The notes under the pieces: model-generated | What the model was told of the DNA's origin: nothing | The model's input: only the letters and a program-made list of their open reading frames with translations | Databases searched by the model: none | Shown: piece by piece, positions 10,294-33,271 of the stretch | Layout of the letters: the number at the start of each line of letters is the position of its first letter | Position numbering within the stretch: position 1 is the first letter of the stretch | Position numbers and translations under genes: made by a program | Assembly (NCBI GenBank): GCA_009379735.1 | Contig: WHTB01000016.1 | Span: 1 to 33,271 of the forward strand | Length of the DNA: 33,271 nucleotides | From: Propionibacteriales bacterium | GTDB lineage: Bacteria > Actinomycetota > Actinomycetes > Propionibacteriales > Nocardioidaceae | Reading direction: 5' to 3'

Positions 10294-10742
10294 CCACCAT
10301 CGCGGCCGGGTATCGCGCCGTGTTCTCCGCCTGGGGCCGAAGCCGGCCCGCACACCGCCCCCTCATGGGCCCCCACCGAGGCAGCGCCAACCGACGTCGA
10401 CGCCGCGCAGGCCATGCCAAGCACCGGAGTGGTGGTGATGTTGAAGGCTCCGCCGGCCAAACGAGGGCGCGATGTCCATATGATCAAGCCACGTTCGCGA
10501 TCGGCTCGCCGGTCTGTGCACGCGTATGCGCTGGGCCGTTCGGCGCGGACTGCCTCTGAGCAGGTGACCGTTCGCCTCACCTGGCCCTCGACCGGTTTCT
10601 GCCCGGACCGCGCGGCCGGATAGCGCGTCACTTCTCGTGCCTCCCGCTCGGTGGACCGCCCGAGCGGGTGCTAGATCGCCGCCAACTCCAGCGGCCACCG
10701 CCCTTCATGCTGCTGTCATGTGTGCTGCCTAGCGTCGATGAC
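10294..10742. other. 449-base intergenic stretch
   Basis: No convincing gene is present: short frames on both strands lack codon bias, ribosome binding sites or recognisable protein. CCCGCTCGG (10643-10651) pairs with CCGAGCGGG (10660-10668) to form a nine-base-pair hairpin, perhaps the terminator of the MFS gene or a leader structure. A TAGCGT hexamer (10730-10735) seven bases before GTG 10743 is a candidate leaderless promoter for the glycosyltransferase gene. Confidence 0.5.
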
Positions 10743-17891: not shown

Positions 17892-18938
17892 CACCCGCAC
17901 CTCGGCGGTTGTCCTCGTCGGGCGGCTCGTGGCTCGCGGGTAGGCGTGGACCACGGCCGTGGCGAGTTTGGGCACGGCATGGGTGAGCTCGTGTTCAGCG
18001 GTGTGGGCCAGCTGGTGTGCCTCGGCGAGCGAGGTGCCGCTGTCGATGGCGAGGTCGGCGTCGGCGTGGATCTCGTGGCCGATCCAGCGCATCCTGACCC
18101 GTCGTACTGAGAGCACGCCGGGAATCGCCTGCAGGCTCGACTCGGCCGCGTCGATCAGGTCGGGATCCACGGCGTCCATCAGTCTGCGGAAGATGTCCCG
18201 CGCGGCGGTCCGCAAGACCGCGAGGATGGCCACGGTGATGAGCAAGCCCACGAGGGGGTCGGCGGCTTCCCAGCCGGCGGCGACCCCTGCCGCGCCGATC
18301 AGGACGGCCAGAGAGGTGAACCCGTCGGTGCGGGCATGCAAGCCGTCAGCGACGAGGGCGGCCGATCCGATCTGGCGGCCGACCCTGATGCGGAAGATCG
18401 CGACGGCCTCGTTACCCAGGAATCCGAGGAGTCCAGCCAGCGCGACCCAGCCGAGTTGGTTGACGGGTTGTGGGTGGATCAGCCGGGCGATGGACTCGTA
18501 GCCCGCGACAACGGCAGACATGGCGATCATGGCCACCACGAAGAGCCCGGCCACATCCTCGGCCCGCCCGTAGCCGTAGGTGTAGCGACGCGTCGGTGCC
18601 CGTCGACCGATCGCGAACGCCAACCAGAGCGGCAAGGCGGTCAGGGCGTCGGAGAAGTTGTGGATGGTGTCGGCCAGCAGCGCCACCGACCCCGAGATCG
18701 CCACCACCGCGAGCTGCGCGAGGGCGGTCACGCCGAGCGCCACGAGGCTGATCTTGACCGCACGGATGCCGTGCGCACTGGACTCCAACGCGTGGTCGAG
18801 CGAGTCAGCCGCATCGTGGGAGTGAGGGCGCAAGAGATGGCCGAGGCGGCCTGGCAGACCGGGGGGCTCGCCGTGGTCGTGATCGTGGTGGCCTGCGTCG
18901 GTGTGCTGGTGGCCGTGGCCGGGATCCTGGACGCTCAT
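17280..18938 (-). CDS. cation diffusion facilitator (Zn/Cd exporter type) with readthrough C-terminal extension
   Basis: The frame encodes 552 residues, but only about the first 335-345 resemble a CDF protein. There is a His-rich head (HGHQHTDAGHHDHDHG), six helices, metal motifs DTIHNFSDAL (His93, Asp97) and GLHARTDGF (His201, Asp205), then the cytoplasmic domain ending near TAVVHAYPR. CDF proteins normally stop about here. In this copy no stop codon occurs, and the frame continues about 200 residues antisense through the kinase gene to 17280. That tail has the composition of a shadow frame and is probably not functional sequence. The start (ATG 18938) overlaps the ArsR stop as ATGA. It exports divalent metal (Zn, Cd or Co) under control of the adjacent sensor; the original 3' end was probably lost. 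Confidence 0.85.
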   Translation of the reverse strand: MSVQDPGHGHQHTDAGHHDHDHGEPPGLPGRLGHLLRPHSHDAADSLDHALESSAHGIRAVKISLVALGVTALAQLAVVAISGSVALLADTIHNFSDALTALPLWLAFAIGRRAPTRRYTYGYGRAEDVAGLFVVAMIAMSAVVAGYESIARLIHPQPVNQLGWVALAGLLGFLGNEAVAIFRIRVGRQIGSAALVADGLHARTDGFTSLAVLIGAAGVAAGWEAADPLVGLLITVAILAVLRTAARDIFRRLMDAVDPDLIDAAESSLQAIPGVLSVRRVRMRWIGHEIHADADLAIDSGTSLAEAHQLAHTAEHELTHAVPKLATAVVHAYPRATSRPTRTTAEVRVLRRGRASRQIEDDLSTSDGRGPSVGLGDCLDESEPEAGASGGAAGVGAGEPVERVVDEVGGEPGPFVADSEPGPFVGSCGADPDGAFAVLQCVGDEVREGKFEPVLVPRDGQAGQCRRFEAPALRICLRSEAARDVDEELVDIDGVVRGFAGGAELFEVEEGVGQRDEPLDLAAQGLERCRGLGFASGAQQRYLELGAHQGER

Positions 18939-19339
18939 TTCGCTCCCTGGCGCGGTGTCGCACGCAGCGGGGTCGCTTCATCCTGGTGGTGCCTCGGCAC
19001 ATCCGCGCCGGCGTGCTCGGCGTTGAAGACGGCGTCGCGGACCAGCCGTGCGACGTGGTCGTTCTCGACCCGATAGAAGACCTGCGTTCCTTCGCGACGC
19101 GTGTGCACCAGTCGAGCCATCCGCAGCTTGGCCAGGTGCTGCGAGACCGAAGGTGCGGGCTTCCCCACCAGGTCCGCCAGCTCGTTGACCGGCAGCTCCC
19201 GGTCGAGCATTGCCCAGAGCAGCCGCACCCGGGTGGGCTCGGCGAGCATCCGGAACACCTCGGCCGCAAGTTCTGCCTGCTCGACCGCGAGCGAACCCCC
19301 TTCTTCACTATCTGCATGTATGCGCAGATAGTACAGCAC
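18935..19339 (-). CDS. ArsR/SmtB-family metal sensor (CzrA/NmtR-like)
   Basis: This winged-helix repressor has MLAEPTRVRLLWAMLDRELP, a recognition helix PAPSVSQHLAKLRMARLV and the wing TRREGTQVFYRVE. The C-terminal helix has ENDHVARLVRDAVFNAEHA, resembling the alpha-5 site (Asp-x-His and His-x2-His) of CzrA/NmtR Zn/Ni/Co sensors. Two of the four usual positions (His95, His109) are clearly present. The only NTG start giving the whole domain is GTG 19339, which overlaps the crcB stop. However, the promoter-like TACTAT (19333-19328) and the palindromic operator lie inside that frame. The family's usual N-terminus (a Met followed by His-Ala-Asp) aligns with an ATA codon at 19321, six bases after TACTAT. 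The true start may therefore be ATA. It heads the CDF operon (ATGA overlap). Confidence 0.85.
   Translation of the reverse strand: MLYYLRIHADSEEGGSLAVEQAELAAEVFRMLAEPTRVRLLWAMLDRELPVNELADLVGKPAPSVSQHLAKLRMARLVHTRREGTQVFYRVENDHVARLVRDAVFNAEHAGADVPRHHQDEATPLRATPRQGAK
19307..19333 (-). promoter_or_regulatory. ArsR operator overlapping a -10 element
   Basis: ACTATCTGC (19307-19315) and GCAGATAGT (19324-19332) form a perfect nine-base inverted repeat with an eight-base centre ATGTATGC. On the minus strand the outer arm contains TACTAT, six bases before ATA 19321. Interrupted AT-rich palindromes over the -10 region are typical of SmtB/CzrA-type operators, so metal-free repressor would block its own operon here. 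Confidence 0.65.
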
Positions 19340-20078: not shown

Positions 20079-21095
20079 TCAAAGTCCGAGGTCCTTGCTC
20101 GAGGTGGTGGCGAGGGCTTCGAGGGGCCGGATGTAGCGGTTGACGAGGACGCCGAGGTCCTTGTGCCGGGTCTGGGCGGCGATCCGGTTGAGCGGGACGC
20201 CCGCGAGGGCGGCGGCGGTGGCGTGCCCGGCGCGCAGGGAGTGGGCGGTGATGCGGGTGCCGTCGAGTCCGGCGGCCTCGGCACGGGCGCGGAGCATGCG
20301 GGAGGGGACGTGGCCGGTGAGCGGTTCGAGGCTGACCCTGTTGCCCCAGATCCGGGTGAACAGTGCACCGGGGGCCTCACCCCGGACGGCGCGCCAGGCG
20401 TTGAGGGCGGCGACGGGGTCGGTGGCGGCGTGCTGGCCGTGGGCGACGGCGACGGTCTCGCCGTGGCCTTCTTGGTCCATCTTGGAGCGGCGGATGTGGA
20501 GCAGCAGTCCGGCGGGCTTGTGTTCGACGTCGGCCAGCGTGAGCGCGACGAGTTCGGCGCGACGCAGAGCGGAGGCGTAGCCGAGCAGGATGATCGCGGC
20601 GTCCCGGATCCCGATCGGAGTGGTCCTGTCGATCCCGGCCACGATCTGGCGGATCTCCTCGACGGTGAGGGGGCGGGCCAGGCGGCGGGGTGCGGCGCCG
20701 TAGGTGCGGACCAGGCCGCGGCGGACCTGCCGGACGGCCTCGGAGGCGACCGGGTCGTCGGTGCCGGTCATCCGGTGGACGTGCCGGATCACGGTGCAGG
20801 ACATGTCGAGGGTGCTGATCGCCTTGCCGTGCTCGGCGCGTTCGGTCAGGTAGGCCGACAGGGCCAGCGGGTCGGCCGGTAGCGCAATGGTGCCGCGGTG
20901 GGCGCACCAGCGTTCCCAGTGCCCCCAGACCTGGGCGTAGACGCCGCGGGTGGTCTCGCTCTTGGCGGCGGCGATCGCGCGGGTGATCCGGGCGGGGTCG
21001 GTCTCGGTGAGCCCGGCGGGCAGCGCCGGCGGTTCGGGCCGAATGCGGTCGAGGGTGGTGCTGGTGGGCAGGGTGCAGTTCATGAAGTGGGTCAT
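20079..21095 (-). CDS. tyrosine recombinase / integrase
   Basis: The product is 338 residues from ATG 21095. The N-terminal SAM-like core-binding domain (about 30-125) contains TRGVYAQVWGHWERWCAHRG. The catalytic domain has Arg178 (YASALRRAELVAL), Lys205 (RRSKMDQEG), His285-x2-Arg288 (AHSLRAGHATAAALAG), His311 (TRHKDLG) and nucleophile Tyr321 (VNRYIRP). The full catalytic set is present, so it should cut and rejoin DNA through a 3'-phosphotyrosine. A TACAAC hexamer six bases before ATG 21095 hints at a leaderless start; the frame is also open to 21188. It stands at the left edge of the mobile region, facing the chromosome-like genes. Confidence 0.93.
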   Translation of the reverse strand: MTHFMNCTLPTSTTLDRIRPEPPALPAGLTETDPARITRAIAAAKSETTRGVYAQVWGHWERWCAHRGTIALPADPLALSAYLTERAEHGKAISTLDMSCTVIRHVHRMTGTDDPVASEAVRQVRRGLVRTYGAAPRRLARPLTVEEIRQIVAGIDRTTPIGIRDAAIILLGYASALRRAELVALTLADVEHKPAGLLLHIRRSKMDQEGHGETVAVAHGQHAATDPVAALNAWRAVRGEAPGALFTRIWGNRVSLEPLTGHVPSRMLRARAEAAGLDGTRITAHSLRAGHATAAALAGVPLNRIAAQTRHKDLGVLVNRYIRPLEALATTSSKDLGL

Positions 21096-21205
21096 GGCCG
21101 GGTTGTACCGGCCCTGAGAGCGCCGCGGTCTGCTCCCCCATCTCCGGGTTCGTCGCTCACCGGGCCGCGCCGGCACGGTGTTGATCACATAAGGCTGACC
21201 TTTCG

Positions 21206-21394
21206 ATGACGAGTCAAGATCTGGGCAATGGGTCGGGCATCGAAATTCCTGACATCGTTGACCAAGCCCAACGACACGGCCAAGCCGCTGAGACGTTGGC
21301 GAACCGCTGCGTCCGGGGCGATCTCACGGCGATCGAGAAGCTGGGCAGGAGACTGGTCAAGTGTCGCGGATCGGCGACTTCGCGCGAGCGGTGA
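21206..21394 (+). CDS. small hypothetical protein
   Basis: A 62-residue frame divergent from the recombinase gene. The product is polar and helical (QRHGQAAETLANRCVRGDLT), with a basic end. G/C bias at third positions is only moderate, and no ribosome binding site is clear. It could be a small DNA-binding or excision factor, which often lies beside an integrase, but nothing in the sequence proves this and it may not be a gene. Confidence 0.3.
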   Translation: MTSQDLGNGSGIEIPDIVDQAQRHGQAAETLANRCVRGDLTAIEKLGRRLVKCRGSATSRER

Positions 21395-21430
21395 GCTGAA
21401 GCGGTGACGGCCATCGGCAGTTCCTCCAGG

Positions 21431-22000
21431 TCAGGCGCCAGAGCCGGGCAAAGCTGCGACCGCGGCCTCGAGAAGCGCGATGCTCGCGACAAGGGTCTGC
21501 TGGACGCCTGCAGCATCCTCGGCCAGCTTCACCGCTGCGGCAACCACGGCCGAGTGCTCATCGACCTGGGTCTTCAGGTCCTGAAGCGCGGAGCGTACTG
21601 TCGCGCCATCGCCGGAAGAAGGACCGACCGTGGTCAGTCGGCTTGTGGCCGCGGCGGCCGCTTCAACGCTCGTGGACCGTTGAGGCGGACGGCTCAACGG
21701 GTCGGCAGTGAAACTCTCGCGGTACTGCTCGAGCACCTGACGAGTGGCGTGAAGTTTCGGGTTGGCCCTGCAGAAGTCGAGGAGGTGACGCCAGGTGTAC
21801 ATCGCATCACCGCTGGGCACCTGGACCGTGGCGAGCGGCGCTTGGTCGCGCGCCACCCAGTTCGCCAGCGTTGTCGACGCGACCCCGGACTGCTTCGCCA
21901 TCGCCGAGCGGGTAAACAGTTCGTCGAGCCGGTCCGGGACCAGATCGTTCACTGGCCAAGGCTCGCACAGTTTCACGACACGATCCAAGAAATGTCGCAC
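21431..22000 (-). CDS. HTH DNA-binding protein with helical C-terminal domain
   Basis: This 189-residue protein has an N-terminal helix-turn-helix segment, FTRSAMAKQSGVASTTLANW (about 29-48), followed by a MerR/excisionase-like wing region VPSGDAMYTWRHLLDF. The C-terminal part (about 110-185) is Ala-rich, helical and coiled-coil-like (TQVDEHSAVVAAAVKLAEDA), as in KfrA-type plasmid proteins. It is probably a local transcriptional regulator or a partition/maintenance factor of the mobile region. The GTG start at 22000 lies in a repeat-rich divergent promoter that it may bind itself; GTGs at 21976 and 21952 are alternatives. Confidence 0.7.
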   Translation of the reverse strand: MRHFLDRVVKLCEPWPVNDLVPDRLDELFTRSAMAKQSGVASTTLANWVARDQAPLATVQVPSGDAMYTWRHLLDFCRANPKLHATRQVLEQYRESFTADPLSRPPQRSTSVEAAAAATSRLTTVGPSSGDGATVRSALQDLKTQVDEHSAVVAAAVKLAEDAAGVQQTLVASIALLEAAVAALPGSGA

Positions 22001-22028
22001 AGTTGTGCAAATGTGTGAGCATGTGTGA
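21997..22028. promoter_or_regulatory. repeat-rich divergent operator region
   Basis: GCACA-GT-TGTGC (21997-22008) is a near-palindrome. It is followed by direct repeats GTGTGA at 22013-22018 and 22023-22028, ten bases apart (one helical turn). It lies exactly between the starts of the HTH protein gene and the divergent unknown gene, a typical autoregulatory position. Confidence 0.4.
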
Positions 22029-22716
22029 TGTGAGCAGCCTTCCCCTTGCCGACCACCCGATCCGGTGGCGTGACCCGGTTACGCCTACGGATGTGGGCGT
22101 TGGCGGGCTGCATCTTGTCCCTGGCGGAGCCCTTGCGTCCGGTACGCGAGCCGACGCGCTGATGGCGCTCGACTCCCACGAGGCCAAGCGGCGCGCAGAT
22201 GCATACCTGGAATCCATCCCCTCTCTCGCAGTGCTCGACGTGCTCTTGGGCCTGCCCCTGGGGTGCCCAATCGACGTCGAAGACCTCACCGAGCACGAAG
22301 ACCGGATGCTGCGGACGGCGCCGCACGGATGTGTCGAATTCACCGACACCTCGGTGACGCGACGACTACAGGTTCCGACGACGGTCGTCGCCGCGGTTGT
22401 CCGCGGGTCGCGGTGGCGCGCATCGCTGCTGCGTGCCGCAGCGTTCTCGGCGTTTACACAGCGGATCGTCGCACTGCAGTCTCCCCCGAGATCCGCGGCC
22501 GTTCTGGAGGCGCAGTTCGTTGGAGTCGGCATCTGGGTCGAGAGGGATGCGGGCAGCTTCGACGAGCACCTCGCGCCCCAGCCGTTCGTTCCCAGGTACT
22601 TCAAGGCTGCCGGATGGCGATTCACCGAGAACGCCTTCAAGGCTGCAACAGAAGCACGCATGCTGTCGCACGACTACACCCTGGGCAGAGCTTCAGCAGG
22701 CTGCCTTTGCTGCTGA
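22021..22716 (+). CDS. hypothetical protein of mobile region
   Basis: This protein of about 231 residues is taken from ATG 22021; TTG 22003 is possible but lies in the operator-like repeats. No signal peptide, membrane helix or known motif is seen. The middle is an alpha/beta-like segment (VPTTVVAAVVRGSRWRASLL), and the extreme C-terminus is unusual, ending AGCLCC with three Cys, which might be a metal or lipid-modification site. Its third-position bias supports real coding. It is divergent from the HTH gene and may be controlled by it. I cannot assign a function. Confidence 0.65.
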   Translation: MCDVSSLPLADHPIRWRDPVTPTDVGVGGLHLVPGGALASGTRADALMALDSHEAKRRADAYLESIPSLAVLDVLLGLPLGCPIDVEDLTEHEDRMLRTAPHGCVEFTDTSVTRRLQVPTTVVAAVVRGSRWRASLLRAAAFSAFTQRIVALQSPPRSAAVLEAQFVGVGIWVERDAGSFDEHLAPQPFVPRYFKAAGWRFTENAFKAATEARMLSHDYTLGRASAGCLCC

Positions 22717-22839
22717 GGTGCCCGCCGGCGCCGAGTACACAGGCCGACCAGCACAATGACTCAGCTCAAAGGTGTGAAGACGGTCTTCGACTTCATAGAG
22801 GCATAGTCATCGACCAAGGTGCAAGCCGGACTCGGGCTC

Positions 22840-23952
22840 CTACTTCCAGGCGCCGGCTCGGCTCATCGACCGCATCTGGGGATCGTCAAGCTCGAGGAAC
22901 TTGTGCAGGCCACGGTTGAGCACCATGTCGCCCAGCGGGTTGAGTTGCATGTGGCGGGTGTGTGCCTCAAGCCGGACTTCGCGCAGGTAGGCCGCCCGCG
23001 CCTCGGGGGCATGTGCAACCAGGCGGGCGATGTGCGCGGTGGTCTGGTGGAGGTTGTGGCCAATGATCACAGCCTTGTCGGCCGGGGTCGTGTCGAACAC
23101 ATCCAGCGGACGGGCGCAGGTTACGCAGTGCGGGGAGCGCGAGTTGGCGTACCAGTCGGCGTAGATCATCGGGCTGCGCACTTCGAGGAGCTCCTCAAGG
23201 AACAGGCCCGGCAGGTAGCCCACAGAGTTCCTGCCGCCGCCCTTGTCGCCAGGCCGACTGGGCATCCGTCGTGCGCTGGATGCACCGACCCCGGCCCAGC
23301 TCGCGCCGCTGGCGAGCGCGTCGGCGGCGATGAGAGGGTCGACGTGATCGACCTCACTGCCTGGGTGCTCGCCCAGGACCTGACGCAGACCTTCGATGCG
23401 CTGGTACTCCGCGATCGGGTCCTTCTTGTCGGCGAAGATGAACGAGAACTTCCGGCCCTGGTGCACCGACAGGTCGTCGAGGAAGTCGTCACGGCGGGCG
23501 GCCTCAAGCACCGCCGCCTCGATCGCGAGCCGTGTGATGATGTTCGGCGGCAGGCCCGCAGTCTGCTCCAGCAGCGCTTGCCGAGCCGGACGGTCAGAAG
23601 CCCGAAGGAACTTCGACGGGGTGTAACCGTCGACGGGTCCGCCGACCGGGAAGTTCTGCTCATACCATCCGGCGATCCCGAAGAGGTTGTCGACCTCTGC
23701 GAGCGGTTGGTCCGCGGTCGCGTGCCCGTGCCGCCAGGCGCCGGGGTCAGCGCGGACGCGCAGGCGCGGCATCCGTCGGACCAGGTCGAGGGCCAGTGGC
23801 AGTGCCCGGTCGTCACTGACCACAAGGGTCTGCCCGGTTCGGTGGCAGTGCTCCGCGGAGACCTCGAGCTCGTTGCACAGGCTTTTCTCGGACGCAACGA
23901 ACCCCACTGGGAGTACGTCGACCGACACCTGGCTCATGATCCCATCATTCAT
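22840..23952 (-). CDS. uncharacterised 370-residue protein next to the E1-like gene
   Basis: This soluble protein starts at ATG 23952 or at ATG 23937 (residue 6). It has a segment TLVVSDDRALPLALDLVRRM (about 42-61), a Cys pair HCVTCARPLDVFD (about 274-286) that may bind zinc, and a His-rich helix HNLHQTTAHIARLVAHAPEA. The C-terminal helices contain RLEAHTRHMQLNPLGDMVLN. No fold is recognised. It follows the E1/ThiF-like remnant on the same strand by about 46 bases, suggesting a former operon. Such partners of bacterial E1 proteins can be targets, E2-like proteins or nucleases, but that is only a possibility. Confidence 0.7.
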   Translation of the reverse strand: MNDGIMSQVSVDVLPVGFVASEKSLCNELEVSAEHCHRTGQTLVVSDDRALPLALDLVRRMPRLRVRADPGAWRHGHATADQPLAEVDNLFGIAGWYEQNFPVGGPVDGYTPSKFLRASDRPARQALLEQTAGLPPNIITRLAIEAAVLEAARRDDFLDDLSVHQGRKFSFIFADKKDPIAEYQRIEGLRQVLGEHPGSEVDHVDPLIAADALASGASWAGVGASSARRMPSRPGDKGGGRNSVGYLPGLFLEELLEVRSPMIYADWYANSRSPHCVTCARPLDVFDTTPADKAVIIGHNLHQTTAHIARLVAHAPEARAAYLREVRLEAHTRHMQLNPLGDMVLNRGLHKFLELDDPQMRSMSRAGAWK

Positions 23953-23998
23953 CTCGACCCCTACATCTACCGTTCGACACGCTGAAAGCGCCCGACAT

Positions 23999-24715
23999 CT
24001 AGTGGGTGCTTGACTTGCTGTCGCTCTCGCCGTACGCGTTCATGGACTGGGTCGGTCGGGCAGCGGCGCGAGCGGCGACTGCTGCGGGATGTCGGCCGGT
24101 GACGTCGACCCCGGCGGCGTCACCGCGACCCTGGAGCTGGGTCGGGAACGGGCAGCCGGCCCGGCAGCCGTCGACGTCGCGCTCGGTGGTGGCCGTTGTC
24201 CAGTGGGTCAACGTCGCGCCGACGTCGTGGATCTTCGAGGGGCCGAGGACCGCGCGGAGCAGCTCGAGTACCTCAGCAGCAGCACAGGCCATTGAGAAGG
24301 CAAAGACGTTCTCACCGCGGCGCAGGTGGTGGTCGGCGGGCAGGGATGCGATGTAGGCCGGGTCGTCGAGCAACCCAGCCCGCTCCATCCCGACCTCACC
24401 TGGGTCGTACTGGCCCAGGCACTCCATGCACTCGCGGTTCGGGCCTACCAGGTGGGCGCGCCACTCGGCGCCGATCAGCCGGAACGGCGCCGCCGCGGTA
24501 GCGAGGCCCTGGTAGTTGCCGGCTCGTACGTCCACGGCGACGCCGCCGTCCACGACCGGGATGAGGTGGGCGTACGCGGCCACGTTTAGCGCGAACCGGG
24601 GCCACGGCCGATCGACGCAAGAGAACAGGACGTCGCAGTCGAGCGCGCGCAGCCACCCCTCCTGCTCGATCACGGAGTCGTCGAAGCCGTGCACGACGGC
24701 GTCTGGGGTGACGGT
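23999..24715 (-). pseudogene. E1/ThiF-family adenylyltransferase, 5'-truncated
   Basis: The segment carries the C-terminal half of a ThiF/E1-like enzyme, which adenylates the C-terminus of ubiquitin-like or sulfur-carrier proteins. Diagnostic pieces are DCDVLFSCVDRPWPR, AYAHLIPVVDGGVAVDVR, the zinc-type CMECLGQYDPGE, and the later pair DGCRAGCPFP. The nucleotide-binding GxGGxG loop and the first acidic residues that should precede these are absent. Upstream of about 24715 the frame stays open to 24952 but is antisense to a plus-strand gene and looks unrelated. The gene therefore lost its 5' part at a junction with the Tad-like module. The remaining product would not bind ATP. The 370-residue protein gene follows in the same direction. 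Confidence 0.7.
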
Positions 24716-24970
24716 GTGCTCCAGTCGGTCAACCTCGACAACTCCGATCCTCAGGCCGGCAAGGTGCCAACCGTGCAGATCGATGTGTGCTTCGACGTCA
24801 GCGACGTCGACGTACTCGACGCGGACGGAAAGTCCGTCGTAAGCCCCGAGCGACCCGACACCGGCTGGATCCGGTACTCGGTCGCGAACTACCAGTGGGA
24901 TTCCGATCCCGATGGCGCGTGGCGAGTCGCCTCCAGCCAGGACATCGAGCAAACGCCATGCGACGCCTGA
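24689..24970 (+). pseudogene. 3' fragment of a secreted/lipoprotein-like gene of the Tad-like module
   Basis: From about 24715 the frame reads GVLQSVNLDNSDPQAGKVPT, FDVSDVDVLDADGKSVV and DTGWIRYSVANYQW, ending QDIEQTPCDA. This looks like the C-terminal domain of an extracytoplasmic protein of the kind encoded just before Tad-like genes in actinobacteria. The signal sequence is missing; the ATG at 24689 lies within DNA belonging to the E1-like gene on the other strand. The fragment overlaps the start of the next gene by 13 bases, showing the original operon order. Confidence 0.6.
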
Positions 24971-25917
24971 TCACCCGTGTCGTCCTCACCGCACTCGCAG
25001 CCGCGAGCCTGATCCTCAGCGCCGGCACAAGCGCGGTCGCTGACACGACGTGTCAGGTCACCGATCCGGAGACCGGCGTCTGCCTGATCTGGATCGAGGT
25101 CCCGGGGAATCCCGGCCAGCCAGGCGAGCCCGGCGATGACGGGCCGAAGGACACGGGATCCGGACAGTCCTGCTACTGGGACGGGACGGCTCAAGACATC
25201 CACAAGCCACCGCCGGGGCCCGTCCCGTGTTCGAGCGAGTACGGCTACTGGTCCAACAACTACAACTGCTACATCCAGCTTATCGACCCACAACCTCCTG
25301 CCGGTGACCCTGCGTGGCAGGGACACGAGCCGGGCGACGGCGCCGTGTATCGGTGCTACCAACCGCAGACCGACATCGATATCTACGTCTGGTCCGCCGA
25401 CCCTCCGCCCAACTCAGGCTCCGGCCCGACCCCGCGGGAGGTGGCAACGCTTGCGATCGATCAGATGAACCTGTCGGCGATCAACATCGGAATCGCTCCG
25501 AAGCCCGGGAGCGGCAGCATCGGGATTGTCGGCATGCCGGTCTGGATGTGGGCAGCCAATCCCGACAGCCACACGGTTGGACCGATCAGCGCCTCGGCAT
25601 CAGCCGGCGGGATCACCGTCACCGCCACCGCTCGTCTCCATCGCGTCACGTGGGACATGGGAGACGAAACCGAGGTCATCTGCAACGGGCCCGGCACGCC
25701 GTACAAGGCGGAGTACGACGATCGGTCGTCACCGACGTGCGGCCACACCTATCAGAAGTCGAGCGCCGGCATTCCCGGCGACAAGTACACCGTCACGGCT
25801 ACCTCGGACTGGGTGATCACCTGGGCCGGCGCCGGGCAGACCGGAACGATCCGACTGAACGGCTTAACCCGTGCTGTCGAGATCTCCATCGGAGAAGCGC
25901 AGGTGCTCGTGAACTGA
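24958..25917 (+). CDS. secreted protein with PKD-like domain, Tad-like module
   Basis: The 319-residue product has a signal peptide (RRLITRVVLTALAAASLILS, cleavage near SAVAD). A Gly/Pro-rich linker (NPGQPGEPGDDGPKDTGSGQ) and a Cys/Tyr/Trp-rich region with YGYWSNNYNCYIQL follow. The beta-rich C-terminal domain has the PKD-like WDMGDE and SPTCGHTYQKSS. It should act outside the membrane, perhaps as a surface or pilus-associated subunit. Its ATG overlaps the stop of the preceding fragment, and the CpaB-like gene follows after 32 bases. The specific role is unknown; the domain reading is by pattern. Confidence 0.78.
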   Translation: MRRLITRVVLTALAAASLILSAGTSAVADTTCQVTDPETGVCLIWIEVPGNPGQPGEPGDDGPKDTGSGQSCYWDGTAQDIHKPPPGPVPCSSEYGYWSNNYNCYIQLIDPQPPAGDPAWQGHEPGDGAVYRCYQPQTDIDIYVWSADPPPNSGSGPTPREVATLAIDQMNLSAINIGIAPKPGSGSIGIVGMPVWMWAANPDSHTVGPISASASAGGITVTATARLHRVTWDMGDETEVICNGPGTPYKAEYDDRSSPTCGHTYQKSSAGIPGDKYTVTATSDWVITWAGAGQTGTIRLNGLTRAVEISIGEAQVLVN

Positions 25918-25949
25918 GCGAGCTGTGCGGGGAAGACAGCGAGGGACCC

Positions 25950-26621
25950 ATGACCACTTCCATTCGGGACGACAAGACCGTCGGCCGCGAACTGAGTTCG
26001 ACCGAAGGCGGGATCGCCCCGCCTCCGAAGCTTCGTCGGAGGCCCGGGATGGTCGCCATCGCGATCGTCGCCATCTGTCTGGGTGCGGTGGTCGCAGGCT
26101 GGACTTGGTCGGCGACCACCGACAGTCAGGAAGTCCTTGTTGCCCGGGCCGACATCGAGCGCGGTTCGATCATCGGCGAGAGCGATCTGACGACCGTTCG
26201 GCTCAGCGCCGACCCGGCCCTCACGCCGGTGTCTGCCGACGAGTTCGAGTCGGTGGTCGGCCAACGCGCGGCCTTCGACATCGCGAGTGGATCGGCACTG
26301 ACTCCGGAGTCCTTCACGACCGCGTCGCTGCCGCCGACGGGCCAGTCCGTCGTAGGAGTCGCGCTCACGCCAGCGCAGGCGCCCGGCCTGGCGTTGCACT
26401 CCGGTGACCGCGTCCGGGTCGTAGTGACACCAGCCCAGGACGGCGATGCTCCTGGCGGCACCCCGGAGTACAGCGACGCCGAGGTAGTCGCAGTGCACGT
26501 CAACGAGGAGACCGGCGAGACTGTCGTCGACCTGCTGGTTCGCCACGAGGATGCAGCGGTGCTGGCAGCTCGGATCGCCACCGGGCACGTTGCTCTGGTC
26601 CTGGATTCGCGGGATCGCTGA
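25950..26621 (+). CDS. SAF-domain protein, CpaB/RcpC-like pilus assembly factor
   Basis: This 223-residue membrane protein has a cytoplasmic head of about 40 residues and one helix (VAIAIVAICLGAVVAGWTWS). The SAF domain contains VLVARADIERGSIIGESDLT and AAFDIASGSALTPESF, the pattern of CpaB/RcpC proteins that act at the base of Flp/Tad pili. A beta-rich domain (GDRVRVVVTPAQD) completes it. ATG 25950 has a GAGGGA ribosome binding site. It overlaps the CpaE-like gene (ATG in its TGA). The order CpaB-CpaE-CpaF is the Tad operon order. Confidence 0.85.
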   Translation: MTTSIRDDKTVGRELSSTEGGIAPPPKLRRRPGMVAIAIVAICLGAVVAGWTWSATTDSQEVLVARADIERGSIIGESDLTTVRLSADPALTPVSADEFESVVGQRAAFDIASGSALTPESFTTASLPPTGQSVVGVALTPAQAPGLALHSGDRVRVVVTPAQDGDAPGGTPEYSDAEVVAVHVNEETGETVVDLLVRHEDAAVLAARIATGHVALVLDSRDR

Positions 26622-27388
26622 TGGCCGTCGTCGCTCTCACCTCAGCGTCCGGCTCGCCCGGTGTGACCACCACAGCGGTGGCCTTGGCATTCCTCTGGCC
26701 GCGGCCGGTGGTCTTGGTCGAGGCCGACCCGACGGGCGGTTCCGCCATCCTGGCCGGCTACTTCCGGGGCACCCGCGAGTACGACGTGGGCATTGTCGAG
26801 CTCGCCCTCTCGGCGCTATCGCCATCAGACGCACTGAGGGAGGCCATCCGACTGATTCCCGACACGCATGTCAGCTTGCTCGCCGGCACACGCTCTCGCA
26901 CCCAAGCCGCCGCGCTGCGTGATGTGTGGGCTCCGCTCGCCGAGACCCTGGGCCAACTCGAGGAGAACGGGCAGGACGTCGTCATCGACGCGGACCGGCT
27001 AGGGCTGTCGGGATCTCCAGCGGCGCTGTTGGACGCAGCAGACCTGACTCTGTTGTTGACTCGCACCAACCTCCCGGCGCTCTCGGCAGCGCGGACGTGG
27101 GCGGACGCGATTGCCCGACCGGCAGGCGATCTGCGGCAGGCAGGCATCCTCCTGATCGGTGAAGGCAAGCCCTACGGCGCCGCCGAGGTGAGCTCGGTCG
27201 TCGGTCAGCCTGTGGTCGCCGGCATCGCCGACGAGCCCGAGGGCGCTGCGGTATTCCACCGCGGATCTCAGCAGCCGAAGCACTTCGACACTGCCCCGTA
27301 CGTCAGGAGCATTCGGGCCAGCATCGAGGCGATCCATGGAGTCATCCAGCGGCGCCGTTCCGCACTACTCGCACAGGTGAACTCATGA
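26621..27388 (+). CDS. MinD/ParA-fold protein, CpaE/TadZ-like, with degenerate Walker A
   Basis: This 255-residue protein has a ParA/MinD layout. The loop ALTSASGSPGVTTTAVALAF stands in the deviant Walker A position, followed by VVLVEADPTGGSAILAGYF (switch I, Asp36) and DVVIDADRLGLSG (Walker B/switch II region). The invariant Lys before the Thr pair is replaced by Val (Gly14-Val15-Thr16) and the signature Lys is absent, so ATP hydrolysis is doubtful. TadZ/CpaE proteins in Tad systems place the pilus machine at a cell site and are often degenerate in this way. It is coupled to both neighbours by 1-4 base overlaps. Confidence 0.8.
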   Translation: MAVVALTSASGSPGVTTTAVALAFLWPRPVVLVEADPTGGSAILAGYFRGTREYDVGIVELALSALSPSDALREAIRLIPDTHVSLLAGTRSRTQAAALRDVWAPLAETLGQLEENGQDVVIDADRLGLSGSPAALLDAADLTLLLTRTNLPALSAARTWADAIARPAGDLRQAGILLIGEGKPYGAAEVSSVVGQPVVAGIADEPEGAAVFHRGSQQPKHFDTAPYVRSIRASIEAIHGVIQRRRSALLAQVNS

Positions 27389-28593
27389 CGTCCGGGCGGT
27401 TCATGGACGATCCACAATCGCTGCCGCTGTTCTCCGGGCCGACTGCCGACGTCGCGACTGCAACGCCGCGACACGTCGGGTCCGTGTTGCGGATGCCACT
27501 CGCGCCACCGCAATCCGCCGAGGGCGTCGACTGGCAATTGGTCGCTGCCCTGCGCGCGAAGGCCTCAGACCAACTCAGCCAAGCAGTAGCGGCCGACCGC
27601 GGTCGCCTCGACAAGACCGGCCAACAGGAACTCGGACGTTCGATCGTCCTTGAGCTCATCGACACGGCCATGGTCGACCGCGTGAACGCCGGCTCCGCCG
27701 CGATGTCCGCGACTGACCAGTCCCTTTTGGCCCACGCGGTGTTCGACTCGCTCTTTCGTCTCGGTCGCCTCCAACCGCTCGTTGACGACGACCGCATCGA
27801 GAACATCATCATCACCGGCCACGACCGTGTTTTGCTCGAGCTGATCGACGGTTCGCTGCTCGAAGGTCCCCCGGTCGCCGACTCCGACGAGGACCTCATC
27901 GACTTCCTGGTCTTCCTCGCCTCTCGCAGCGAGGTGAACGCACGCGGCTTCTCAGAGGCGCAGCCTCGACTCCACCTGCGCCTCGACGGCGGATCCCGAC
28001 TCGCAGCCGCGGCCTGGGTCACCCCTCGCCCCTCCGTTGTCATCCGCCGCCACCGGCTCATGGAGGTCAGGCTGGATGACCTCGTTGATCGTCAGATGCT
28101 GACGCCGGTGGCCGCCTCCTTCCTGTCGGCCGCGGTGAGGGCACGCCGAAGCATCGTCGTCTCGGGATGCCAAGGAGCCGGCAAGACCACCCTCGTCCGC
28201 GCGTTGTGTGCCGAGATCGACCCGCTTGAGGCGATCGGCACCTTCGAGACCGAGTACGAGCTGCACCTCCACGAGCTGCCCGATCGGCACCGCATCGTGC
28301 ACCCGTGGGAGGCACGGCCGGGCTCCGGCGAGCGTGGCGCCGACGGACGACAGGCTGGAGAGTTCACGCTCGACGAGGCTCTCGTCGATTCCTTCCGGTT
28401 CAACCTCGCGCGCCAGATCGTGGGTGAGGTTCGCGGCAAGGAGCTCTCGCTCGAGGACATCAGCAACGGGGTCCACGGCATCGCCATCAACGCACTCTTC
28501 GGGCGCGAACTTCGAGAAGTAGCCGTTCGACAGAAGGTCTGCGATCAGCGCTGCCCAATCACGTCTGGCCGTCGCTCCCAGGTCGGTGCCTGA
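27385..28593 (+). CDS. CpaF/TadA-like secretion ATPase, 3'-truncated and chimeric
   Basis: This type II/IV secretion ATPase drives Tad pilus or conjugation-like transport. The N-terminal domain (to about 230) and Walker A SGCQGAGKTTLVRAL (260-274) are followed by the acidic GTFETEYELHLHELPDRH region. The catalytic core goes as far as FNLARQIVGEVRGKE (339-353), where family members continue with a conserved helix and an STTHA box. Here the sequence changes abruptly after about 28442, and the last 50 residues are antisense to another gene. The His box and C-terminal third are missing, so the enzyme is very probably inactive. TadB/TadC genes that should follow are absent. Confidence 0.85.
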   Translation: MTSGRFMDDPQSLPLFSGPTADVATATPRHVGSVLRMPLAPPQSAEGVDWQLVAALRAKASDQLSQAVAADRGRLDKTGQQELGRSIVLELIDTAMVDRVNAGSAAMSATDQSLLAHAVFDSLFRLGRLQPLVDDDRIENIIITGHDRVLLELIDGSLLEGPPVADSDEDLIDFLVFLASRSEVNARGFSEAQPRLHLRLDGGSRLAAAAWVTPRPSVVIRRHRLMEVRLDDLVDRQMLTPVAASFLSAAVRARRSIVVSGCQGAGKTTLVRALCAEIDPLEAIGTFETEYELHLHELPDRHRIVHPWEARPGSGERGADGRQAGEFTLDEALVDSFRFNLARQIVGEVRGKELSLEDISNGVHGIAINALFGRELREVAVRQKVCDQRCPITSGRRSQVGA

Positions 28594-28917
28594 CTGCTGC
28601 GTCGGGCTGACAGCACCCCAGTACGGCCGCGGGCTCCGGTGCCTGGGCAGCTCATGCGCCTGGTCGATGAGGAGCTCCAGTTGGCGACGAGACGCGGCCG
28701 ACGAGTCCTGTGACCATGGATCAGCCGCAGGCGCCCAACTTGTCGGGCGCGACAGGTCAAGGACGGGACCTTCCCCCCAGAACGCTTCCTCGAGAACCCG
28801 CTGAATCTTGCCGTCACTCGGGCCATATAGCTTCAGCACCTCCGCGAGTTCCTCGGCGAAGACGTCCGCTGGCCACACAAGCTGATAGTCGGGATCTGCA
28901 TCCTGCTCGCCAAACAC
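28445..28917 (-). pseudogene. uncharacterised gene, 3' end lost at junction with cpaF-like gene
   Basis: From GTG 28917 about 157 native codons can be read: FGEQDADPDYQLVWPADVFA, EVLKLYGPSDGKIQRVLEEA, then ARRDWAALIADLLSNGYFSK and FAPEECVDGD. After about 28445 the frame is antisense to the CpaF-like gene and has no independent support. The acidic helical head with a later ALIADLLSNGYF resembles N-terminal domains of some defence-island proteins, but I cannot name a family. TACGCT lies six bases before the GTG, an apparently leaderless promoter. The direction is opposite to the Tad-like module. Confidence 0.5.
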
Positions 28918-29362
28918 TCGACGAGCGTAACCAGTCGAGCCACGGCTGCGACCAAAGACGGATGACCTTTCGGCGGTTCCTCACCAGCGCCGGTGTCGTT
29001 GACGGGTCACATGCCAGCGCCCCGGATGCCCCGAGAAGCAAGGGTGGATGGACCGAACGGGTCGGCCCTGGGCACGCAGCTGGGTCAAAGCGCGGCGAGC
29101 GAGCCAGCGGTTGGCGTACGGGATCTTGGTGCACATGGCGACTCCACAGACGCGACTGAGTGGAGTGACGCCTCGCCTCTATCGACGAACGGCACGGCGG
29201 CGGTGTGCGCTGATGCGCCCGGCTCACCCGCATTCCAAGGTCCATGGAGCCGAAGGGACGTTTCGAGGGTAGCAAGCGTAGTCCGCTCTGCGGCCGGGCT
29301 TTCCCACCTCATTCCTGAGAGCGGATGCCATCCGAGGCTCCGCGAGATCGCAGGAGTCAGCA
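28918..29362. other. 445-base stretch without a convincing gene
   Basis: Several short frames exist on both strands, but none has consistent codon bias or a recognisable product. TCCGCTCT (29282-29289) and AGAGCGGA (29318-29325) form an eight-base inverted repeat ahead of the SSB-like gene, whose GGAG ribosome binding site lies at 29351-29354. The promoter of the truncated minus-strand gene occupies the left end. Confidence 0.5.
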
Positions 29363-29791
29363 ATGACCATCCCGACCCAGCTGAGCCTCCACGGGTTCAT
29401 CGCTACCGCACCCGAGTTGAGCAAGCCCGACACCAAGGACGCCCGGTTCTACGCCCGCGTCGGCGTCGAGCACTGGCGTAAGGAGCCCGACGGCTCGTTC
29501 ACCAAGCTCGACCCGACCTTCCACAACCTGGTGATGTACGGCGAGTCCGCCAAGCGTGCGTACGCCCGATTCCGGGTCGGCGACCAGTTCGTCGCCTCGG
29601 GCTACATCACGGAGTACGAGAAGACGTGGAACGAGCAGACGGTGACGCGGGAGCAGTTCGTCGCCAAGCACATCGGCCACGACACGACCTGGACTCGCTA
29701 CTCGGTCGACCGGGCGCCGGCGAACCAGCCCGACCCGCCGGCCGACCAGTTGACTGCGGCGAGTGAGACGCCGCGAGTCGTCGGCCTCTGA
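29363..29791 (+). CDS. single-stranded DNA-binding protein-like OB-fold protein
   Basis: This 142-residue protein has an OB-fold core of the SSB family. TQLSLHGFIATAPEL opens it, then DARFYARVGVEHWRK, FHNLVMYGESAKRAYARFRV, and GDQFVASGYITEYEKTW. The latter two correspond to strands that carry the DNA-binding face and the GD-VxVxG turn of SSB. The tail is Pro-rich without the acidic DDDxPF tip of chromosomal SSB, as in many plasmid or conjugative-element homologues. It probably protects transferred or replicating element DNA. GGAG stands eight bases before the ATG, and the DUF4913 gene follows after 15 bases. Confidence 0.8.
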   Translation: MTIPTQLSLHGFIATAPELSKPDTKDARFYARVGVEHWRKEPDGSFTKLDPTFHNLVMYGESAKRAYARFRVGDQFVASGYITEYEKTWNEQTVTREQFVAKHIGHDTTWTRYSVDRAPANQPDPPADQLTAASETPRVVGL

Positions 29792-29806
29792 GTCGGGGCA
29801 CCGGCA

Positions 29807-30388
29807 ATGCCGACGGTCGATGGACCGCAGGAGTCGCTGCTCGATCCCGACTTCGACGCGAGCATCCATCCGATGTTCAGCGGCTCCGCCGAATACTCCG
29901 GACCCGAGGAACCCGAGGAACCGCTCCGTCCTCTGAACTGGAACCTGCTGTCCAGCGAAGAGGCGGAGGCTGAGTGGCTGGACCTCAACGCTTGGGTGGA
30001 CTGGCTCCGCTCGACCTACGGGCTGCCGCCGACGGTGATTCCGCCGTACTGGCACCGCCACGACGAGCTGATTTGGGAGCTCTCGGCGCTGCACCTGCAC
30101 TGGCTGAACTCCTACGACGCAGACGGATCGCCATCAGCTCCGATCATGTGGCACCGCGACTTTGCCGACGCCCGCCAGAGGTTGCGCGAATGGGTGGCGA
30201 CTTGCGGGACCCGTCTCGATCGTGACCGGCCGACACGACAGACGACCTGGCCGGGTGAGGACGCCCCGCCAGCCGGGGTCGAGGTCGTCATCGAGGACCG
30301 CGGTGCTGACTTCGTCGAGTTCGTCATCGAGGACATCGCCGCCCGGCGGCGTATCGAGGACCGGGTGCGTGCTGCCCGGGCTGGCTGA
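29807..30388 (+). CDS. DUF4913-like protein of actinobacterial mobile elements
   Basis: This 193-residue acidic protein has a Trp-rich middle: WLDLNAWVDWLRSTYGLPPT, then PYWHRHDELIWELSALHLHW, then WHRDFADARQRLREW. It matches the W-x-W and H-x-E pattern of DUF4913 proteins common in actinobacterial plasmids and integrative elements. The function of the family is not established. A polar C-terminal region (VEVVIEDRGADFVEFVIED) may form a small extra domain. It follows the SSB-like gene closely and is probably in the same operon. Confidence 0.72.
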   Translation: MPTVDGPQESLLDPDFDASIHPMFSGSAEYSGPEEPEEPLRPLNWNLLSSEEAEAEWLDLNAWVDWLRSTYGLPPTVIPPYWHRHDELIWELSALHLHWLNSYDADGSPSAPIMWHRDFADARQRLREWVATCGTRLDRDRPTRQTTWPGEDAPPAGVEVVIEDRGADFVEFVIEDIAARRRIEDRVRAARAG

Positions 30389-30508
30389 TCCACAACCACG
30401 GCGCCGACATGCGCCGTCCACAGAACTCCAGGCAGGCGGCGTCCGCAGAGCGTCCCAGCGGTGGAGTCATCAAGCGGGACTCCGATCCCGGACCGAAAGG
30501 AACCATCC

Positions 30509-30805
30509 ATGTTGCTCTCTCACGCGATCACTCTCGCCGAGGCCCGCTCGCACCTCGCGGCGCTCGCGAGGCGCGCGTACAACGACGAGGCATCTGCCGA
30601 GTACGAGCGTGTCCTGCTCCATCTCGACGTCATCCACGGCGACCACACCCCCGGCATCAGCGACGTCGAAGACGAGAGCGCCGACATCCTCTACGGGATC
30701 GCCGAGCACGCCATCGAAGACCTCGTCGTCCACGGCATCGACGCACTCCAGGTCGAACTGCTCCTCGACATGCTCGACGCGGCCAGGGCGAAAGACGTCC
30801 CCTGA
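30509..30805 (+). CDS. small helical protein, hypothetical
   Basis: This 98-residue acidic, all-helical protein starts at ATG 30509 with GAAAGGA eight bases upstream. The head MLLSHAITLAEARSHLAALA faintly recalls Phd/YefM antitoxin N-termini, but the rest (HAIEDLVVHGIDALQVELLL) does not support that. Its TGA shares bases with the ATG of the next gene (TGATG), so the two are coupled and the products may interact. No family is recognised. Confidence 0.7.
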   Translation: MLLSHAITLAEARSHLAALARRAYNDEASAEYERVLLHLDVIHGDHTPGISDVEDESADILYGIAEHAIEDLVVHGIDALQVELLLDMLDAARAKDVP

Positions 30806-32121
30806 TGTACGCCGAGAACGGCGGCCACCTACGCGCCGAACTCAGCACTCTGCTCCGCCAGCACCGCGTGCAGCAGCGCCTCGGTGGCGCCGGAAGCCAC
30901 AGCATCCCCGAGACGACCACAGTCGACGAACGTCGGCTCCTTGGGGAACAGATCGGCCGCTACCGCCACTCAGTGCTCGTGTGGTGCGTTCAAGCCGTGC
31001 GCGCAGCCAACCCACGGATGAACCTCACCGTCACCAGCACACGGACCCGGGGTCCAGCCGAGGAACTGCGCCATCGCCTCGACGTCGCGGTCGAGCACTC
31101 CCCCGGCCTGCCGGCGCTCGATGAGCTGACCACCGAACAGCCGTTCGCGATGGTCGACTCCTGGCGACAGGTCGCCCGCGCCGCAACGTTCGGCGAACAC
31201 GACTTCGACGCTGGCCTCGGATACGGGCGGATCTCCCAGATCCAGTGCATGACCCTGCTCAAGGACGCCTCAGAAGTGGCCCGGGGCCTGGTCGGCCTCG
31301 ACCGCCGCTACGCCAACATCCCCGGCTGGCAATCCCTGAAAGACGCCGGCTGGCTCGGCCGTGCGGCCGAAGTGTGCTCAACCTTCGCCGGCTACGACGG
31401 GCCTGACTACACGATCGACCTCCGCGGGTGGCAGCCGCGACGCACGCTTGTCGAGGGACCCGGATTGCCCGGGCTGACCGGCGTTGTTCAGGCCCAGCAC
31501 AACCTGCTCGTCCACCTCGAAGAGTTCCCCGACGCTCGCAGCCTGCGTCTGGTGCTCGACTCCCAGCGCATCGTCTCCCGGGACGCCACCGCCCTGGACC
31601 CGACCGCAGCCGCAGACTGGGCACGGCGCGCGTCGACCTACCTCCGGCTGATCCACGCGACCCACGACATCGGTGGCATGGTCGGCAACGGCAGTCCGGC
31701 CGCTGGCGAGGCAGCCCTCGCCGCATGCCGCATGGAACGGTTCACCCGCGCCGTTCATGCCGGAACTGACACGGCCGTACCTGGAGCACTCCGGCACCTC
31801 GCGCGACTGGGACGCGAGATCGACGAACGCATCACCCAGGTAATCCGGCAGGGCGCCCGAGAGCGGATCTACTTCGCCCGCGTTCCCTTCCCACGCGTCG
31901 ACAAGGACGCGGCAGCTCTCGTGAAGTCGACTCGACAGCGCTATGTCCCGATGACGGCAGACGTGTGCCAAGAGCTCCTTGATCTGGTGAGCAACGACCT
32001 CCGACCCAACGCCGAGGCGCCCCAAGCACCGACGAGGGCCGCTGCGAGTCGAGAAGAACTCGCAGCAGCCCTCGTGCACCGTCCTGAGCCCCGGCGCACC
32101 AGGTCGGGACTGTCGTTGTGA
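30805..32121 (+). CDS. large helical hypothetical protein of mobile element
   Basis: This 438-residue protein has no membrane helix or signal. Its helical segments include LRAELSTLLRQHRVQQRLGG and HSVLVWCVQAVRAANPRMNL. SQIQCMTLLKDASEVARGLV follows, and near the end come ARERIYFARVPFPRVDK and RQRYVPMTADVCQELLDLV. The C-terminus is Arg-rich. It starts in the stop of the small helical gene and ends immediately against the convergent antitoxin gene (TGATCA at 32119-32124). Codon bias is strongly coding. The partnership with the 98-residue protein suggests a two-protein unit, but I cannot assign a role. Confidence 0.75.
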   Translation: MYAENGGHLRAELSTLLRQHRVQQRLGGAGSHSIPETTTVDERRLLGEQIGRYRHSVLVWCVQAVRAANPRMNLTVTSTRTRGPAEELRHRLDVAVEHSPGLPALDELTTEQPFAMVDSWRQVARAATFGEHDFDAGLGYGRISQIQCMTLLKDASEVARGLVGLDRRYANIPGWQSLKDAGWLGRAAEVCSTFAGYDGPDYTIDLRGWQPRRTLVEGPGLPGLTGVVQAQHNLLVHLEEFPDARSLRLVLDSQRIVSRDATALDPTAAADWARRASTYLRLIHATHDIGGMVGNGSPAAGEAALAACRMERFTRAVHAGTDTAVPGALRHLARLGREIDERITQVIRQGARERIYFARVPFPRVDKDAAALVKSTRQRYVPMTADVCQELLDLVSNDLRPNAEAPQAPTRAAASREELAAALVHRPEPRRTRSGLSL

Positions 32122-32445
32122 TCAGGCGCTGAGCGCCTTGCGCCGCACAGCAGCCAGATCGCTTTCGAGCCGGTCGAGCGCGGCCTTGAGGTCGTCGGCA
32201 GGTGCGATCGCCTGGAGCACGAGCATCCGAACCACCGTGGACACTGGCAGCCCGCGCTGGTCCGCGTACGCGGCCAGCTCGTCGAACTCCTCGTCACGGA
32301 AGCGGACCTGGAGATTCTTGGATCGTGCCGTCCCCCGGGTGACCTTCACGTGCGCGGGAAGCGGCGCGTTGGGGTCGCTCGTCGCCTCGGCTGCCTCAGC
32401 GGCTTCGGCCTCAGCTGCGAGCAAGTCCTCAATCTTGGTGCTCAT
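32122..32445 (-). CDS. ribbon-helix-helix antitoxin, BrnA-like
   Basis: This 107-residue protein has an Ala/Glu-rich helical head (residues 7-22) and the ribbon-helix-helix pattern NLQVRFRDEEFDELAAYADQ followed by RGLPVSTVVRMLVLQAI (about 44-80). That fold binds DNA as a dimer. It overlaps the toxin gene by 17 bases and lies downstream of it, the order seen in BrnT-BrnA type II systems, where the antitoxin both blocks the RNase toxin and represses the operon. The 23-base palindrome at 32744-32766 is its likely operator. Confidence 0.75.
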   Translation of the reverse strand: MSTKIEDLLAAEAEAAEAAEATSDPNAPLPAHVKVTRGTARSKNLQVRFRDEEFDELAAYADQRGLPVSTVVRMLVLQAIAPADDLKAALDRLESDLAAVRRKALSA

Positions 32446-32803
32446 CGGCTTCTCCCTCGCTCTGGTCGGCGTAGTACCGCCGGTCTCTCTGGTTCGCTGC
32501 CCACCCGTTGACGCCGTACTCGGTCCCGTCGTTCTCCAGCACGATCACGGTGATCACATCATCTGCGGTCACCGAGAACCCGATGATCCTGACGCTCTTG
32601 CCGCTCTCGCTGTTGTAGTCGGGGTCGATCACGACCCGGTTGGGGTCTTCGAGCGCCTCGTCCGCAATCGCTGGCGTGACGCCGTGGTTACGCTTCATGT
32701 AGGCGCCGCGCTGCGACCAGTCGACGCGCTCGAACACTCGACCATCGTAATGCATTGCATTACGATTCGGAAGAGGTGTCGGCGCCACGATCTCGTCGTT
32801 CAT
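32429..32803 (-). CDS. BrnT-like RNase toxin
   Basis: The 124-residue product has the BrnT-type core. FERVDWSQRGAYMKRNHGVT stands for the usual WD-x-K-x-x-x-N-x-x-KHG start, then ADEALEDPNRVVIDPDYNSE, SVRIIGFSVTADDVITVIVL and a terminal AANQRDRRYY for the catalytic Arg-rich end. BrnT toxins cut RNA and stop growth. ATG 32803 overlaps the recombinase stop as ATGA and has GGAGGGG eight bases upstream. The homologous part begins near a second ATG (32755) inside the palindrome, so a shorter product is possible. Toxin before antitoxin is the BrnTA order. The assignment is by pattern; the family resemblance is moderate. Confidence 0.7.
   Translation of the reverse strand: MNDEIVAPTPLPNRNAMHYDGRVFERVDWSQRGAYMKRNHGVTPAIADEALEDPNRVVIDPDYNSESGKSVRIIGFSVTADDVITVIVLENDGTEYGVNGWAANQRDRRYYADQSEGEADEHQD
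32744..32766 (-). promoter_or_regulatory. perfect 23-base palindrome, probable BrnA operator
   Basis: ATCGTAATGCA, one central base, and TGCATTACGAT form a perfect inverted repeat with 11-base arms. It covers codons 13-20 of the long toxin frame and includes the in-frame ATG 32755 at its centre. An RHH antitoxin would bind such a site. If so, a promoter for the toxin-antitoxin genes lies just upstream, inside the first codons of the long form. Confidence 0.6.
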
Positions 32804-33271
32804 GACTGCCCCTCCGCTCGCTTCGGGGCCAGCGACTCCAAGATCTCGGCCGTCACCGGATCGACTGCCTCGTCGGGCTGGATGTAATGCTCCTTGGTGA
32901 TCTTCGACGAGGTGTGCCCAAGCAGTTCGGCAGCGAGATCCGGCCCACTGGCCCGGTCAAGAACTGTCGCGACCGTGCGGCGGAAGGCATGCGGGGTGAC
33001 GCCCTCGATCCCGGCTTCCGACAGCACCGCCCGCAGGCGCCGGCGAATGTTGTTGGTCGTCAGAGGCGTGCCGTTGCGGGTGAAGAACAGCAAGTGATCC
33101 ACCTCCTCGGCACCAACGACGACGAGTCGTTGCCGGATCACCTCTGCTGCGAAGCTCGGGATCGACACCACACGTGTCGACTTCTGCGTCTTCGGGTGAG
33201 GCTGTCGGTAGGTCGGTTTGCCAGCCGGCGACACGATGGTGCCGCAGATCCGAACCGTTGCCGGGGAGACC
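32800..33271 (-). CDS. tyrosine recombinase, C-terminal part (cut by window edge)
   Basis: The frame is open to the window end; the visible 156 residues are the C-terminal catalytic part of a phage-type integrase. TQKSTRVVSIPSF contains the beta-hairpin Lys region, HAFRRTVATVL carries His-x2-Arg, and ELLGHTSSKITKEHYIQPD carries the second His and nucleophile Tyr. The first catalytic Arg lies beyond the edge. The stop overlaps the toxin start (ATGA), so integrase and toxin-antitoxin genes may be one transcript. With the recombinase at 20079-21095 it brackets the mobile region. Confidence 0.9.
   Translation of the reverse strand, partial: VSPATVRICGTIVSPAGKPTYRQPHPKTQKSTRVVSIPSFAAEVIRQRLVVVGAEEVDHLLFFTRNGTPLTTNNIRRRLRAVLSEAGIEGVTPHAFRRTVATVLDRASGPDLAAELLGHTSSKITKEHYIQPDEAVDPVTAEILESLAPKRAEGQS

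Follow-up and report, generated by a model that had tools for sequence, protein, structure and literature searches.

A probable defective ICE of a Nocardioidaceae family, apparently shortened by two large internal deletions

The stretch of DNA analysed here, 33,271 nucleotides long and called the window below, is contig C431 (WHTB01000016.1) of a 483-contig, 4.52-Mb draft assembly (GCA_009379735.1) of a Propionibacteriales bacterium. Our results suggest that it probably carries a defective integrative conjugative element (ICE) of a Nocardioidaceae family, which would have lost two large internal stretches, its transfer machinery among them. A preliminary description had recognized in it a Tad/conjugation operon fragment, cut at both of its ends and apparently pasted into another gene set. 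The fragment and its two truncations stand, but the pasting is not supported, the right neighbour of the fragment being the right arm of the same ICE. As it is, the element is no longer capable of self-transfer.

Materials and methods

The limits of the Tad-like block were set by comparing its DNA with that of 32 loci in Nocardioidaceae and related bacteria. In the key synteny search, window positions 21000-33271 served as query against 341 genomes of the host family. Domains were called with Pfam and NCBIfam at curated cut-offs, and matches below cut-off are flagged. The own genome was searched for the missing ICE regions at the DNA level with N. jensenii sequences as queries.

Results

Table 1. 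Features of the window discussed in the text, with their coordinates and the evidence for each.
Feature	Position	Strand	Evidence
Tyrosine recombinase (Phage_integrase)	20079-21188	-	Pfam PF00589
Orphan ORF, 370 aa, presumed cargo	22840-23952	-	good coding bias; relatives absent
JAB-E1 (ThiF) fusion gene, 3' remnant, N-terminal ~270 aa missing	23999-24721	-	alignment to homologues
Junction 1, ThiF remnant/lipoprotein gene; ICE homology begins at 24720	24713-24725		DNA alignments
First gene of the operon (lipoprotein-like), C-terminal 82 aa	24722-24970	+	DNA/protein comparison with relatives
Secreted protein of the Tad-like operon, complete	24958-25917	+	homology
SAF/CpaB-like protein, complete	25950-26621	+	Pfam PF08666
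TadZ/CpaE-like ATPase, complete	26621-27388	+	NCBIfam TIGR03815, below cut-off
CpaF/TadA ATPase, N-terminal 354 aa only	27385-28446	+	PF00437; TIGR03819 below cut-off
Junction 2, CpaF joined into the interior of a minus-strand gene	28443-28447		DNA alignments
Hypothetical gene (~385 aa when intact), 5' remnant, 157 aa	28447-28917	-	alignment to homologues
Right arm of the ICE, up to the contig end	28981-33271	+	86% identical over 4303 bp to N. jensenii
SSB-like protein	29363-29791	+	PF00436 below cut-off; 96% aa in N. jensenii
Three conserved ICE genes, function unassigned	29807-30388, 30461-30805, 30805-32121	+	homology
Two-gene toxin-antitoxin-like cassette	32122-32803	-	weak RelB antitoxin/DUF6290 match
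ICE integrase, C-terminal part, cut by the contig end	32800-33270	-	PF00589

Four genes are truncated at two junctions

Among the 32 loci, most of those that span the limits of the Tad-like block place them at 24720 and 28447, or a few bases off, and similarity is absent beyond (Table 1). The preliminary description had placed these junctions at about 24715 and 28442, correct to about 5 bases. On the left, N. jensenii, G115 and N. daeguensis all become similar to the window at a sharp edge, position 24720 (TCCAGTCGGTCAACC...), everything upstream being background. On the right, CpaF identity stops at 28443-28447, where intact relatives read GGCAAGGAGATCTGGGCG and the window reads GGCAAGGAGCTCTCGCTC. 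Both block ends lie inside genes, since the first gene and CpaF are longer in the intact operon: the lipoprotein-like product retains 82 of about 204 aa and CpaF 354 aa of the roughly 490 found in intact homologues (208 and 492 aa, respectively, in the operon of the Microbacterium plasmid pYJNG).

The opposite-strand neighbours, which had also been described as truncated, are indeed cut. The product of the left one aligns only with the C-terminal part of JAB-E1 proteins of about 490 aa. Full-length homologues begin with a JAB-like domain, whose HSHP motif was read off the alignment, followed by the E1/ThiF domain; the window gene has kept neither the JAB domain nor the GxGxxG part with which the E1 Rossmann fold begins. 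The right neighbour matches residues ~7-157 of hypothetical proteins of 380-390 aa and has lost its 3' half. This alignment of the flanks to intact homologues, a check proposed in the preliminary description, shows all four truncations to be real by that comparison. As to the microhomology that was to be looked for at the same time, a stretch of up to 6 bp is possible at 24720, judging from a conserved Val-Asp codon pair, and one of about 3 bp (CTC/GAG) at 28447, judging from conserved residues, both being read from homologues and not from parent sequences. Neither a direct repeat nor a target duplication was detected flanking the junctions, in agreement with the earlier remark that no transposase and no clear target duplication could be seen.

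The frames of the Tad block are all open, and its singleton N/S ratio is 0.26 versus 0.36 in N. jensenii. Relaxed selection was considered for the block and rejected, nonsynonymous changes not being in excess. Since the block is undecayed, the events that made the junctions are either recent or not real. It does not encode a complete Tad system: CpaF stops at residue 354, and TadB, TadC and the pilin of this operon are absent from the window and were not found in the own genome at the DNA level. A Tad annotation derived from this operon would thus mislead, as no pilus can be built from the operon as it stands. At positions 1-5208 of contig C168 the same genome has another Tad-like operon, more distantly related (its CpaF is 37% identical) and directly adjoining the intact tRNA-Met; this is possibly another ICE.

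The block and the right arm belong to one ICE

In three genomes, N. jensenii (G177), the complete genome G115 and N. daeguensis (G179), the block shares a contig with the segment 28981-33270; order and strand are those of the window, and the distances are 22.6, 33.7 and 38 kb, respectively. G378 also carries both in this order and strand. The two pieces are similarly diverged from the closest relatives: the block is 88-89% identical to them (88% to N. jensenii) and the right arm 86%. The toxin-antitoxin-like pair is 95-99% identical in amino acids to its N. jensenii counterparts, and the integrase 93% identical to the N. jensenii integrase located next to tRNA-Met, where a helix-turn-helix (excisionase-like) gene and then the tRNA follow the integrase gene.

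In the window the integrase is interrupted by the contig end. The continuation, with the ICE right end and the tRNA-derived att core, lies on contig C423 of the same genome beyond a gap of about 1 kb; this joining rests on synteny with G433 and G348. The element thus retains an integrase and, by this synteny, an attachment site, and its integrase end may still be functional. On C423 (positions 100-2062), the ICE right end, a 38-bp att core derived from tRNA-Met, a second tyrosine integrase and tRNA-Pro come in succession. This order recurs in G115, G348, G349 and G433, two tRNA sites being used in tandem. Elsewhere in the assembly, contig C450 contains at 10612-10650 an exact 39-bp copy of the tRNA-Met 3' end with no surrounding tRNA gene, possibly an old attL. 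Within the window, a search for attL with the tRNA-Met and tRNA-Pro att cores returned matches of chance length only, one of them a 13-bp match at 28601 within the cut minus-strand gene.

In intact members of the family, the order is left cargo, MobF relaxase (minus strand), Tad-like operon (plus strand), T4SS genes, TraG/VirD4 coupling protein, optional cargo, SSB module, integrase (minus strand) and att site at a tRNA. What the window lacks in between is made up, in N. jensenii, of the remaining Tad operon genes, a LysM protein, an M23 peptidase, weakly matched TrbL/VirB6-like and AAA genes, and TraG/VirD4; this last and the MobF relaxase, situated left of the operon, both score above curated cut-offs. 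A 577-aa ICE gene is not claimed as VirB4, its AAA_10 match being weak.

At the DNA level the MobF-LysM region of N. jensenii has no substantial match in the own genome of the window, and the N. jensenii T4SS region has a single 51-bp match of chance level. TraG is absent between block and SSB in the window. Relaxase, T4SS and coupling protein are therefore missing from an element in which the block and the right arm, two backbone modules, remain collinear with the intact ICE.

The cut neighbours resemble ICE cargo

Block and right arm are separated in the window by 0.53 kb, occupied by the truncated hypothetical gene. Among eleven related ICEs, the interval between TraG and SSB measures about 0.4-0.5 kb in five (G177, G115, G378, G339 and G270) and holds 2.7-20 kb of cargo in the other six (G179, G348, G390, G349, G377 and G334); in N. 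daeguensis this cargo lies on the minus strand. As the interval often holds cargo, the truncated gene sits where cargo is expected. Its homologues are found on Streptomyces and Rhodococcus plasmids and in a few Nocardioidaceae; a full-length one is cargo in the ICE of G334, at a different spot, between LysM and T4SS genes.

On the left, the tyrosine recombinase has a same-strand homologue in N. jensenii (72% aa), where some 33 kb separate it from the block to its right, and in N. phosphati its homologue is directly left of MobF. N. phosphati also has a JAB-E1 homologue at a distance of about 17 kb from a second Tad operon, likewise related, and JAB-E1 genes also occur on actinobacterial plasmids, including plasmids of M. 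abscessus and Nocardioides. The 370-aa ORF in between has no Pfam match and no relative in 245 genomes of the order or in plasmids. Since homologues of the left recombinase, of JAB-E1 and, in G334, of the hypothetical gene are found near ICEs or on plasmids, both truncated neighbours may plausibly have been cargo of this one ICE.

Further left, the window contains cation efflux (CDF) and ArsR-like genes at 84-1216 and 17280-19317. In the ICE of N. phosphati the TraG-SSB interval carries homologues of the latter pair (63% and 51% aa) as cargo, and much of the left half of the window may thus be ICE cargo. An 83-bp direct repeat, 94% identical and with a start-to-start distance of 105 bp, lies at 5385-5572.

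Discussion

We suppose that two deletions occurred in a resident ICE. The first would have begun inside a left-arm cargo gene (JAB-E1), taken in the relaxase and ended within the opening gene of the Tad operon, creating the junction at 24720. The second would extend from CpaF, across TadB to TraG, into a cargo gene between TraG and SSB, with its junction at 28447. The four truncated genes would then be the deletion ends, and the joins would have been made by end-joining or through microhomology of a few bases; the short microhomologies proposed at both joins would suit end-joining. This is the simplest account because the right arm is native in order and orientation and the cut genes are best read as cargo. 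An intact parent ICE carrying precisely this JAB-E1 gene and this hypothetical gene did not turn up, and it is thus from their homologues that we infer both flanking genes to be cargo of the same ICE. That the search of the window returned no left-end att site counts against this reading.

The two causes first considered for the junctions, illegitimate recombination and assembly error, are both kept, the former as end-joining. An assembly error, in which parts of an intact ICE were wrongly linked to other DNA and neither junction is real in the living cell, is unlikely, though there is room for it. The draft is in 483 contigs and no 16S gene was detected in it, and the open frames and N/S ratio of the block are what would be expected if the real copy were intact. 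Moreover, the junction sequences have no second carrier among the 341 family genomes or in viral contigs. On the other hand, two independent false joins would be needed, and the second would have to bring back the same ICE with its native order and orientation. Misjoins by graph assemblers usually arise where k-mers are shared, and the joins of the block have no flanking repeat. Nor was the remainder of the element found on other contigs of the assembly, though it could be unbinned, and the right end continues coherently in C423, as it does in G433 and G348.

Insertion of a 3.7-kb Tad fragment by illegitimate recombination into an unrelated gene set could account for two truncated block ends, for neighbours that differ on the two sides and for the absence of decay. 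It is nevertheless very unlikely, because 28981-33271 forms the right arm of this very ICE, with native order and orientation kept and divergence similar, and the intervening cut gene lies in a known cargo interval. That a transposon or site-specific recombinase moved the block is scarcely credible: tyrosine recombinase genes are present at 20079 and 32800, but the block ends in coding sequence at unrelated sites, contains no transposase and has neither repeats, direct or inverted, nor a target duplication at its ends.

A defective ICE with two internal deletions is therefore the reading we retain. It is extremely doubtful that the shortened element represents a stable mini-element, made of integrase, SSB, toxin-antitoxin-like cassette and part of the pilus operon and mobilised in trans by intact sister ICEs, instead of a dead remnant. 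What appeared to be a chimera is better read as two deletions, an ordinary type of genome decay, and the case illustrates how a widespread Nocardioidaceae ICE family with a MobF relaxase and a Tad-like pilus operon decays.

ICEs of this MobF/TraG type with a Tad-like operon are common in Nocardioidaceae; we found no published description of the family in the literature searched. The window shares with the Nocardioides members (N. jensenii NZ_BCRJ01000008.1, G115, N. daeguensis and G378) the block, the right arm, the integrase type, and their order and orientation. Unlike them, it is without the relaxase, the genes from TadB to LysM, the T4SS and the coupling protein, and its flanking cargo is different.

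Mobile E1/JAB operons are known on ICE-like elements and plasmids (PMC1779556). These and the plasmid JAB-E1 genes have the C-terminal E1 half in common with the window gene, from which the JAB domain and the nucleotide-binding beginning of the E1 fold are missing. The Microbacterium plasmid pYJNG (NZ_CP060403.1) displays the same order of lipoprotein, secreted protein, SAF, TadZ and CpaF genes, adjoined by a divergent MobF relaxase. There, the plasmid-borne operon is intact and goes on with TadB, TadC, a small gene, TadE, a TadF-like gene, a Tad-domain protein and a LysM protein.
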